A DNA stretch of 64,000 nucleotides from Cetobacterium somerae (GTDB lineage: Bacteria; Fusobacteriota; Fusobacteriia; Fusobacteriales; Fusobacteriaceae): the NCBI RefSeq assembly GCF_022430525.1, contig NZ_CP092521.1, positions 62,001-126,000 of the forward strand, given 5' to 3'. Position 1 is the first letter of the stretch, and every line of letters starts with the position of its first letter. The notes below the pieces were generated by a model that ran no database searches, had not been told where the DNA came from, and saw only the letters and a program-made list of their open reading frames with translations. Of this stretch, positions 17,080-61,349 are shown one piece after another. A program made the translations under genes and the position numbers.

Positions 17080-17116
17080 TTTCTTAGAAAGAAAAAGTTA
17101 TAAAAATCACAATTAA

Positions 17117-17243
17117 ACTCATATATACTTGGGATTGGCCAAGAGTTTCTACGAACTACCGTAAATAGTTCTCTATGAGGGATAAATATAATCGCTAATA
17201 ATGAGAGTATGTATTCCCATAGGATTTATATGCTCTTTTTTTA
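17117..17243 (+). promoter_or_regulatory. Purine riboswitch, guanine type, with terminator
   Basis: The aptamer spans 17117-17180. P1 is CTCATA/TATGAG, and P2 is CTTGG/CCAAG with loop GATTGG. The core is TTTCTAC, P3 is GAACTA/TAGTTC with loop CCGTAAA, and the joining strand is TCTATG. The key pyrimidine (position 74 of the xpt aptamer) is C, the guanine/hypoxanthine class. A terminator hairpin follows at 17202-17236 with a T-run to 17243. The 3' strand of P1 with GGGA (17174-17182) can pair with TTCCCATA upstream of the terminator arm, giving an antiterminator. Guanine should therefore switch the operon off. Confidence 0.88.
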
Positions 17244-46123: not shown

Positions 46124-47530
46124 CTAATTTTTAAAATTTAATTGAGAAAAATTATAAAGTCCTCTTTCGTCACCTTTAAATCCTGCAATATTATTTGTAA
46201 TACCAACAGAGTAATTAGGATAATACAATGGTAAAATAGCATAATCTTCATATAATTTCTCGGCAGATTTTTTTAGATAGTCTTCTCTTTTCTCTAAATC
46301 ATAAGTTCTAGAAAGCTCTAGAAGAGAATCGAACTCTTTATTACTATATAGTGTCCTTCTGCCTGCTTCAGGAGCATTTTGAGAGTGAAACAAAGGATAT
46401 AGTACTCCTTCAGCATCGAAAGTTCCATTAACCCATCCACCAAGAAGAAGATCGTGCTCTCCTTTAGCAGAAGAATCTAAATACTTAGCCCAATCTAAAA
46501 TTATAATTTCAGATTCAATTCCAACCTCTTTTAAATTAGCTTGGATTATTTGAGCATTTGTTTTTCTGGTTCCAACGTCATTTAAAATAATTTTTAAGGT
46601 ACGATTTATTTCAACATCTTCTACTTCTATTTCTTTCGTGTTAGGAGAAAAACCATATGAATTTTTAGGAATCATAGACGTTGCAATAGTTCCACTTCCT
46701 TCTAAAGAAGTAGCTATTAAATCTGCTTTATTTATTGCTTTGGATATTTTTGCTCTTTCTTCTAAAGTTAATTTTTCATTATTAAACCAAACCATTTCTG
46801 TAGTTACAGAGGGAGTTTCAATAACTTGTATTCCTTTACTTTTTACTAACTCTTTATCAATAGGAGGAACATTGGTGTTGATTTGAATTTCCTCGGCCTC
46901 TAAAGCCATTGTTCTAGCATTATCTTCAGGAATAGCTCTAAATATGATTTTATTTTTCCCAGGATTTTTAGAATAATTATTTGGTGATAATTCAATAGTA
47001 TCAATATCTTCTTTATCCAATTTGAAAGAACCAGTTCCAACTAATCCTTTATTAGTTTCTTTTAAAAGAACAATCATTGGATATGTCATATTATTTAAAA
47101 TTGAAGGTGTGGCAACTTTAAAAGTAATTACAACTTTATTTCTATTTATTTTTATAGTGTCAATATTTCCAGTTAGAAATTTACATCCAGGATGAGTTAA
47201 AGTTCTCTCAAGACTATTTTTAAAATCTTCAATAGTAACAGAATCTCCATTGGAAAATTTTAAATCTTTTTTTGGAGTAAGTTCTAAAGTATCGTTTATA
47301 AAGATGTATTCATCAAGTATATTAGACTTTAATTCTTTATTTTCATAGTATAAAAATGTTTCAAAAATTTGATTAGTAACAAGTAATGAAGGAATATCAT
47401 TAGATACCATAGGATCTAGTTTTTTTATTCTAGATGGCGTTCCGATTATAATATTTTTTTCCTTTTCTTTTTCGCAACCTACTAATGCTAAACTTCCTAA
47501 TAAAATTCCAGACAAAATAATTTTTTTCAT
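46124..47530 (-). CDS. Oligopeptide-type ABC transporter substrate-binding lipoprotein
   Basis: SBP_bac_5 (OppA/DppA) family. The signal peptide ends in LVGC near residue 19. The mature part has the family pattern IIGTPSRIKKLDPMVSNDIPSLLV, the LTPKKDLKFSNGDSVTIEDFKNSLER segment and YDLEKREDYLKKSAEKLYEDYAILPLYY. The ATG at 47530 is preceded by GGAGG. No permease genes are adjacent, so it feeds a transporter encoded elsewhere. Upstream is an attenuator-like leader with a Met-rich peptide, hinting at control by an amino acid. Confidence 0.9.
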   Translation of the reverse strand: MKKIILSGILLGSLALVGCEKEKEKNIIIGTPSRIKKLDPMVSNDIPSLLVTNQIFETFLYYENKELKSNILDEYIFINDTLELTPKKDLKFSNGDSVTIEDFKNSLERTLTHPGCKFLTGNIDTIKINRNKVVITFKVATPSILNNMTYPMIVLLKETNKGLVGTGSFKLDKEDIDTIELSPNNYSKNPGKNKIIFRAIPEDNARTMALEAEEIQINTNVPPIDKELVKSKGIQVIETPSVTTEMVWFNNEKLTLEERAKISKAINKADLIATSLEGSGTIATSMIPKNSYGFSPNTKEIEVEDVEINRTLKIILNDVGTRKTNAQIIQANLKEVGIESEIIILDWAKYLDSSAKGEHDLLLGGWVNGTFDAEGVLYPLFHSQNAPEAGRRTLYSNKEFDSLLELSRTYDLEKREDYLKKSAEKLYEDYAILPLYYPNYSVGITNNIAGFKGDERGLYNFSQLNFKN

Positions 47531-47561: not shown

Positions 47562-47671
47562 ATAAAAATAAAAAAGCTTGAGAGAATCTCCCAAGCAACG
47601 TGTTGTTAACATATTTCTTCGGGAGATCTCATTTAAGTAAATCAAAATGAGTTCGTCCCAAAATTAAAAAA
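47562..47671 (-). promoter_or_regulatory. Attenuator upstream of the peptide-binding protein gene
   Basis: On the minus strand the terminator GCTTGGGAG/CTCTCAAGC (plus 47576-47596) is followed by T6. Upstream, GAGATCTCCCGAAG (47617-47630) can pair with most of the terminator's 5' arm (CTTGGGAGATTCTC), forming an antiterminator. A hairpin CTCATTT/AAATGAG lies just before it and can mask it. Together with the Met-rich leader frame this is the architecture of a transcription attenuator. No T-box or SAM-riboswitch signature is seen. Confidence 0.6.
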
Positions 47672-47740
47672 TTAATTTTTGGTATCAACTCCCAAAGGCA
47701 TCATATTCATCATTGTAGTTTTCATTGTTATTTTAAACAT
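47672..47740 (-). CDS. Met-rich leader peptide (22 codons)
   Basis: AGGAGTGG lies 5 bp before an ATG at 47740. The frame reads MFKITMKTTMMNMMPLGV and four more residues, then TAA. Six of 22 codons are Met, four of them within five positions (MMNMM). It lies just before the alternative hairpins of the attenuator. Confidence 0.55.
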   Translation of the reverse strand: MFKITMKTTMMNMMPLGVDTKN

Positions 47741-47900
47741 AGTAACCACTCCTATAAAATATTTTTGTATACTTTATCATAAAAAAATATGTTTTCAAGT
47801 TTTTTATTAAAAAAATTAGAAAATATATTTTATACTGACATACTCATGTAACAAATTTATATTATTATAAACTATATAATTTAAATAAGGATGTGATTTT

Positions 47901-48636: not shown

Positions 48637-49641
48637 TTAATCTAGCTCTTTTAGTAAATTTTTTAATTTTTCTTTAGTTTGACAATCTGTGAAAGCTGCG
48701 TCAACACTATTAAAATAAATATTTTTATAAGTATCTAAATCAATTTCAAAATTTTCTTTTATAACATGACACTCGTTAGTTAAAGTTGTGTTTGACACAG
48801 TTCTATTATCTGTGTTTATTGTAACTTTAATTCCATCCCTATGAAAGTCTAAAATTGGATGAATATCAAATGATTCGATAGCTTTAGTTTGAACGTTGCT
48901 AGTTGGACACATCTCTAGAAAAATATTTTTTTCTTTTACTAGTTCATAAGCTTCTTTACAATTTTTAATATGAATTCCATGTCCAATTCTTTCTGCTCCA
49001 AGAGTTTGAATTGCATCTAAAACATTTTCACCGATTCCAGTTTCACCAGCATGAATTGTAATGTTGTATCCATATTCTTTTCCCAATGAAAATGGATGAA
49101 TGAACTTCTCACAAAATCCTCTCTCTTCACTAGAACAAAGATCGATTGCTACAACTCCATCTCCTAAATATTTTTTTCCAACTTCAATAACATCATAAAT
49201 TGTCTCAGCAGGCATATGTCTTAAAAATGATAGAATTAAATTCCCTTTTATATCATAATTTTTCTCGCCATCTTTTATTCCCTCTAAAACACTTTGAATG
49301 ATCTCTTCAGGAGATAGTCCTTTATCAGTATGTAGTAATGGAGCAAATCTAATTTCTATATATTTTATATTTTCTTTTGCTGAATCCTCCATTAACTCAT
49401 ATGCAACTCTTTTTAAGCTTTCCTTTGATTGCATAATAGCTACAGGAACTTGGAATCTTTGTAAATATTCGTTTAAAGATGTACATTCCATAGGGGCAAT
49501 TAAAATATTTTTTATTGTTTCAATATTGGAAGTGGGTAGGTCGACACCCTCTGTTTTTGCTAATTCAATTATTGTTTCAGGTCTTACACTTCCATCTAAA
49601 TGACAGTGTAATTCTATTTTAGGTAACTTTTTAAAGTTCAT
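48637..49641 (-). CDS. add: Adenosine deaminase
   Basis: Converts adenosine to inosine in the cytoplasm. Zinc ligands and catalytic groups are present: ELHCHLDGS (H12, H14), TIHAGETG, GHGIHI and the aspartate of TINTDNRTVS. At 334 residues it has the usual length. It stands alone behind an adenine-type riboswitch, as in the classical Vibrio vulnificus add gene, and should be induced when adenine is plentiful. Confidence 0.95.
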   Translation of the reverse strand: MNFKKLPKIELHCHLDGSVRPETIIELAKTEGVDLPTSNIETIKNILIAPMECTSLNEYLQRFQVPVAIMQSKESLKRVAYELMEDSAKENIKYIEIRFAPLLHTDKGLSPEEIIQSVLEGIKDGEKNYDIKGNLILSFLRHMPAETIYDVIEVGKKYLGDGVVAIDLCSSEERGFCEKFIHPFSLGKEYGYNITIHAGETGIGENVLDAIQTLGAERIGHGIHIKNCKEAYELVKEKNIFLEMCPTSNVQTKAIESFDIHPILDFHRDGIKVTINTDNRTVSNTTLTNECHVIKENFEIDLDTYKNIYFNSVDAAFTDCQTKEKLKNLLKELD

Positions 49642-49670: not shown

Positions 49671-49790
49671 AATAAAAAAATCCCACTCACAAAGAAAATA
49701 TGACATGATATGTGACATATTTTCTTCGTAAGCAGGAATTAAGGTTCCACGGTAGATACCCCTATACCAAATTAATAGGGTTATACGAAG
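49671..49790 (-). promoter_or_regulatory. Purine riboswitch, adenine type, with terminator
   Basis: The aptamer is at 49724-49790 (minus). P1 is CTTCGTAA/TTACGAAG, P2 is CCCTAT/ATAGGG with GG in the loop, the core is TATCTACC (one U-to-A change), P3 is GGAA/TTCC with loop CCTTAA, and the joining strand is GCTTACG. The specificity position is T, hence adenine. The 3' strand of P1 is also the base of a 17-bp terminator stem (49716-49732 with 49686-49702) before a T-run. Aptamer and terminator exclude each other, so adenine should switch add on. Confidence 0.88.
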
Positions 49791-49815
49791 GGTTTTTATA
49801 TAATTTGTTCCGTAT

Positions 49816-61153: not shown

Positions 61154-61244
61154 AATTACTTTGTTATTATTTTTTTAAAAGAGGTTGTTTATTGAAAGAA
61201 AAAGGTGTAATATATAATAATATAAAGACAATATTTACAAAAAT

Positions 61245-61349
61245 TAGCAAACTACGGGAAACTATAGGACGCAAAGCTAAAGGGCCTTCAAAATGGCAGC
61301 CAGTTGCACTTATTCACTTGTTTAAAAGTGGATAAGTGCATTTTTTTTT
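61245..61349 (+). promoter_or_regulatory. c-di-GMP-I (GEMM-I) riboswitch with terminator
   Basis: The aptamer spans about 61247-61307. It begins GCAAAC, has a GAAA tetraloop region (GGGAAACT), the invariant GGACGCAAAGC core, GGGCC and GGCAGCCAG, and closes with TTGC. A long terminator hairpin (TGCACTTAT/ATAAGTGCA, 61305-61340) and nine T follow. The first bases of the terminator overlap the 3' strand of P1, so ligand binding may free transcription, but the overlap is short and the direction of control is uncertain. A TATAAT (61213-61218) lies just upstream. Confidence 0.9.

Follow-up and report, generated by a model that had tools for sequence, protein, structure and literature searches.

The window, a 64,000-nucleotide stretch of the Cetobacterium somerae contig NZ_CP092521.1, includes on its minus strand a gene (coordinates 46124..47530) preceded by an SD sequence, GGAGG, at nucleotides 47544-47540. 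The predicted product is an OppA-like, family-5 solute-binding lipoprotein that matches the Pfam family SBP_bac_5 (PF00496) with E = 4e-42, in agreement with the oligopeptide-binding protein named in an earlier note on this DNA. The protein scored under every cut-off of the NCBIfam equivalogs, and the gene is an orphan, with no adjoining permease gene. Upstream of it and on the same strand lies a short ORF of 22 codons (nucleotides 47740-47672) that starts with ATG, encodes the peptide MFKITMKTTMMNMMPLGVDTKN, and is preceded by the SD sequence AGGAG (47753-47749). Six of its codons are Met codons, and four of these are clustered within five codons, ATG ATG AAT ATG ATG (47713-47699), as the earlier note had described. 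A scan of both strands of the window for frames of 8 to 35 codons with an SD sequence and at least four Met codons in five detected no other such frame, and none was found in 60 Markov-1 copies of one 64-kb strand. A likely promoter (47771..47798, minus strand) includes the −35 hexamer TTGAAA (47798-47793) and the −10 hexamer TAAAGT (47776-47771) separated by 16 nt; it was called by a consensus scan with TG ahead of the −10 hexamer and represents a match to the consensus only. The promoter stretch TTGA...TATG.TA.(A)GTAT was seen again in the aligned leader homologues. The leader has the translatable ORF, SD sequence and clustered cognate codons that characterize ribosome-mediated attenuators.

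The RNA encompassing nucleotides 47770-47530 has a folding z score of −3.3, and none of 200 shuffled sequences folded equally well. Segment 1, CCUUUGGGAG (47698-47689), consists of the final leader codons and is a partner of segment 2, AUCUCCCGAAG (47617..47627), whose core CUCCCGAAG (47625-47617) is the part paired with segment 1. Segment 2 is common to this 1:2 helix and to an antiterminator, its alternative partner being segment 3, CUUGGGAGAU (47595-47586), which is at the same time the 5' arm of an intrinsic terminator, GCUUGGGAGAuucUCUCAAGC-U6 (47596-47570). The terminator hairpin, formed by segments 3 and 4, occupies 47576..47596 and is followed by a U-tract (47575-47570); all these elements are on the minus strand, as are two inner hairpins enclosed by the 1:2 helix. 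Hairpin P, GAGUU..ACCAAAA..UUUUGGG..AACUC (47649..47691), spans the leader stop codon, its outer pairs overlap segment 1, and it is a possible pause hairpin. Hairpin H2 has the arms CUCAUUU/AAAUGAG (47628..47651). The 1:2, 2:3 and 3:4 pairings are mutually exclusive, and analogous sets ending in an intrinsic terminator are found in other clades. The earlier note had seen here two hairpins, an antiterminator and a terminator with near-copy arms. The terminator stands, but three alternative pairings and two inner hairpins replace the two-hairpin scheme, and the near-copies, which do exist, correspond to segments 1 and 3, either of which can pair with segment 2.

Of 12 Cetobacterium genomes, 10 contain homologous leaders, which belong to two paralogous types, A and B. 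The type A peptide is KTTMMNMMPLGVGTKN, with an invariant Met cluster, and this type is located 5' of a metY-metF-metA-hom-metH operon in four genomes (L031, L032, L033, L035), of an aspartokinase-like gene in one (L034), and of an oppA-like gene in two, the window and L036. The type B peptide is KTTMMNMM(M)PMGVGTKN, with the cluster ATG ATG AAT ATG (ATG) ATG, and precedes metN-metI-metQ, including a copy in the window's own genome (L004). Differences in the length of the leader frame among these homologues are multiples of three. Across 15 Cetobacterium sequences, standard pairs make up 98% of the paired cells. Compensatory exchanges occur at two base pairs of the terminator stem, G-C to U-A at one and A-U to U-A at the other, and the variation in the 1:2 helix is one-sided only, with one mismatch in type B. 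Hairpin P is essentially invariant in the same 15 homologues; the approximately 45 nt around it are nearly invariant in both leader types, a conservation that exceeds what pairing requires. Two of the genes behind type A leaders have unusual features. The aspartokinase-like gene of L034 (7913-8635, minus strand) encodes only 240 amino acids, shorter than usual, and is possibly a truncated or AA_kinase-only form. The orthologous oppA-like frame of L036 (G009:C118), from another species, is interrupted by two stop codons within the match, and its leader contains an assembly gap; the gene may be decaying.

No B12-dependent methionine synthase was found in the window's genome, and the metY enzyme gave a partial match only, 47% identical. 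The organism thus probably relies on uptake, in keeping with attenuator control of metNIQ and of a peptide-binding protein. The tie between the window's oppA-like gene and the methionine pathway is one of association.

One sister genus has divergent members, which a covariance model of the Cetobacterium leader detected with E values of about 1e-9 to 1e-11. Their peptides are M(K/R)N.(E/K)FRQLNMMMMLWKGL and MVNSRIGQLNMLMMMLW, and they are located 5' of metNIQ, of metG (the methionyl-tRNA synthetase gene), of metY-metF-metA-metH and of hom-metY-metF-metA-lysC-metH. Their antiterminator shows compensatory exchange, being GUCUGCC/GGUAGAC in most, GUUUGCC/GGCAAAC in L103, and GAGUUU/AAACUC in L109 and L111. 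A survey of metN upstream regions revealed sequence-unrelated Met-cluster leaders in a second family (MINKVVTFKMNMMHM, MKFAITLMMHM, MKYTTTFMMMHMYT, MNNYALTLMMMYMCR, MKKFAKNMMMDM and others), present in 11 of its 24 regions as compared with 14 of 12000 in a Markov null. None was present in the 16 metN upstream regions from other genera of the window's own family; most of these regions have a SAM-I match or a SAM-I-like sequence. A model built from the second-family leaders found more of them, 5' of metY (MINYKYINDNMMMYMRYRV) and metE (MIKYKYFNNNMMMYMRV).

Besides Cetobacterium, Met-codon leaders are thus spread over six more genera in two families, making at least seven fusobacterial genera. 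The divergent and unrelated leaders, with targets metNIQ, metG, hom, metY and metE, have little in common other than the Met-codon cluster, which outside Cetobacterium takes the forms MMMM, MLMMM, MMM, MNMM and MMHM. It is the sole element kept in all clades, and the peptide flanks, the RNA sequence and the terminators vary. The earlier note had reasoned that a conserved RNA with unconserved Met codons would indicate a riboswitch-type or protein-bound leader; the opposite was observed, the cluster being kept while the RNA sequence changes. One genus of the second family also has a second metN type (L153 and L180) with a longer Met-rich leader of about 49 codons, ten or so of them Met codons, with the SD sequence AGGAGG and a weak AT-rich terminator. 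Several other matches were discarded. Six exact matches to the Met-cluster DNA in other genera of the family were chance-like and had no leader context, a match in Helicobacter cinaedi likewise reads as coding sequence in a different frame, and weak leader-model matches in G038, G079 and G052 have no Met leader.

In the second family, the codons that lead into the Met cluster form 8 to about 21 pairs with the antiterminator loop, directly past segment 2. The sequences involved are genome-specific and the complementarity is kept, as each leader's own pairs sum to −103 kcal/mol versus a permuted mean of −46 (permutation p = 5e-5). The effect of a translating ribosome was modelled by placing a ribosome mask on RNA ending in segment 3, that is, on a truncated transcript. 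In this model the second-family antiterminator peaked at 0.7-0.97 when the ribosome occupied the Met codons, versus about 0-0.13 in the free RNA. In the window, pairing between the leader and segment 2 fell from 0.98 in the free RNA to 0.00 once the A site lay over the last two Met codons, and the other Cetobacterium copies showed a similar drop; a ribosome at the stop codon of the window's leader also hindered 1:2 pairing (0.09). The model thus predicts that the Met codons are placed so that a stalled ribosome would mask segment 1. The antiterminator measure changed in several type A and B copies and not in the window's copy, in which the antiterminator was favoured at every ribosome position (0.74-0.88, at equilibrium on RNA ending in segment 3), and switching there must consequently rest on the order of folding and on RNA polymerase pausing. 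Equilibrium folding of the full-length RNA with the ribosome mask showed no switching, because the terminator wins in nearly every case.

We consider it very probable that the element in the window is a methionine-specific ribosome-mediated transcription attenuator. All the attenuator features that can be tested from sequence are present, and the Met-codon attenuation suggested by the earlier note is, on this evidence, strongly favoured by the conservation of the Met cluster and by the set of methionine genes. Transcription would start about 25 nt ahead of the leader frame. With plentiful charged Met-tRNA the ribosome would pass AUG-AUG-AAU-AUG-AUG, terminate and leave; segments 1 and 2 would then pair, the 3:4 terminator would form, and transcription would stop. 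When Met-tRNA is scarce the ribosome would wait at the last Met codons, covering segment 1, so that segments 2 and 3 could pair as antiterminator and the gene be transcribed. In the window's species this switch would operate at the gene of the OppA-like lipoprotein and at a second locus, metNIQ, and a shortage of methionine would raise the uptake of peptides, the presumed substrate of the binding protein, and of methionine. The target genes found so far behind Met-codon leaders (metY, metF, metA, hom, metH, metNIQ, metE, metG and lysC) form the set that would be expected under a methionine sensor. The signal is best read as the charging of elongator Met-tRNA, since the Met-codon run is the only element common to all clades and metG is one of the targets.

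A leader of this kind could act in other ways. The peptide itself might arrest the ribosome on sensing SAM, methionine or another small molecule, in the manner of the MTO1 peptide of plant CGS1, and the good conservation of KTTMMNMM(M)P(L/M)GVGTKN within Cetobacterium, which extends beyond the Met codons, would be in line with this. However, the conserved Cetobacterium codons double as segment 1 and hairpin P, and the residues flanking the Met cluster are unrelated in other genera (RQLNMMMMLWKGL, FKMNMMHM, TFMMMHMYT, NDNMMMYMRYRV); this lack of conservation of the peptide outside the cluster across clades speaks against an arrest peptide. A stall at plenty would moreover turn on biosynthesis when it is unneeded, and we regard nascent-peptide arrest as unlikely. 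Conservation across clades also weighs against a leader RNA that binds a ligand or a protein, in which the Met codons would be incidental: RNA sequence and architecture differ from clade to clade and the Met cluster stays, which speaks against an aptamer. Such an RNA would be suggested by the elaborate junction with its two inner hairpins, by the near invariance of hairpin P, and by a weak full-length match to the Leptotrichia candidate manA-II (31 bits versus a gathering score of 100). No Rfam family matches these leaders at gathering score, though, manA-II being the one weak match worth noting, and genuine SAM-I riboswitches exist in the window's genome, one at metK and one at a second metNI. 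A riboswitch-type leader seems very unlikely here.

The earlier note had also allowed for a response to initiator supply, an option that is not supported, as AUG codons inside a reading frame are read by elongator tRNA-Met. Attenuation sensing formylated initiator Met-tRNA, or translation initiation in general, would find a parallel in a similar idea advanced for the streptococcal fthC uORF (PMC11109978). The signal in the fusobacterial leaders lies instead in internal codon clusters and not in the start codon, and the targets make or import methionine rather than formyl donors; we consider initiator sensing extremely improbable.

The methionine attenuator proposed for the window shares with the trp, his, leu, ilv, thr and pheST attenuators a short leader ORF rich in the cognate codon, the 1:2, 2:3 and 3:4 alternatives with an intrinsic terminator, and targets that make, import or charge the cognate amino acid. 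It is unlike them in that the cognate amino acid is methionine, that it occurs in Fusobacteriota, and that the systems controlled include uptake, among them an orphan peptide-binding protein. The SAM-I (S-box) riboswitch has the same targets (metN, metK) in this genome and in neighbouring ones, but its aptamer senses SAM directly and involves no leader peptide. The Met-leader loci do not match RF00162, and the window leader gave no RF00162 match at gathering score. In the window's genome (C1), SAM-I riboswitches are located 5' of metK (L046) and of a second metN-metI (L047), and in genome G014 two tandem SAM-I riboswitches precede metN (L142, 1169-1428). As read from these sequences, one genome appears to place two controls on paralogous methionine transporters, one by SAM sensing and the other by Met-codon attenuation. 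Other riboswitches noticed in the window were a purine riboswitch with the expected pairing (49709-49808, minus strand) 5' of an adenosine deaminase-like gene (48637-49641), a second purine riboswitch (17099-17195, plus strand), and a c-di-GMP-I riboswitch (61236-61311, plus strand), the latter two at gathering score.

T-boxes, which may precede met and metG genes in Firmicutes, likewise report aminoacyl-tRNA charging, but they bind the uncharged tRNA directly and leader translation is not involved. The Rfam T-box model matched nothing in the window at gathering score, and a search of the leader at E values up to 1 was negative as well. The manA-II motif (RF04315), also from Fusobacteriales, has a three-stem junction followed by hairpins, the last of them a terminator, as in the attenuator; it differs in sequence and is located 5' of manA and of a pflA-like gene. 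Identity with manA-II was rejected at 31.1 bits (E = 0.0014), far from its gathering score, and no manA-II match at E up to 0.1 was found among ten related loci. Given its attenuator-like topology, manA-II might also represent a translated leader.

Accounts of methionine control in bacteria usually invoke SAM riboswitches, T-boxes, and repressors or activators of the MetJ/MetR type. We found no described methionine-codon attenuator or Met leader peptide in the open literature searched, which does not prove priority, and Rfam has no family for Met-codon leaders. An actinobacterial survey described methionine genes as controlled by riboswitches, and histidine, threonine and phenylalanine genes by attenuators (PMC1262725). 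In a 2024 survey of ncRNAs, the passages on the Streptococcus fthC uORF motif (uORFC-39-1) offer the only related case, a uORF with terminator hairpins and a speculated tie to methionine supply; those passages speculate on initiator tRNA and the rate of initiation and describe no Met-codon cluster (PMC11109978). The class of mechanism is known; what appears to be new is its use for methionine, its set of target genes and its distribution across the order.

We think it probable that attenuation by Met-codon leaders occurs throughout the order Fusobacteriales in at least three sequence-unrelated RNA architectures, that it senses the charging of elongator Met-tRNA, and that it operates beside SAM-I riboswitches in the same cell, the two sensors reading methionine and SAM separately for paralogous metN transporters. 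The existence of at least three unrelated architectures would imply either very far divergence or more than one origin. If this is true, methionine joins the amino acids under classical attenuation by way of a leader that counts AUG codons, and elongator Met-tRNA can be read even though AUG is the start codon too. For fusobacterial genera, the loci described here outline a candidate methionine regulon to which metG and an orphan peptide-binding protein would belong. The placing of paralogous transporters of one genome under a Met-tRNA sensor and a SAM sensor, respectively, would represent a testable division of labour.
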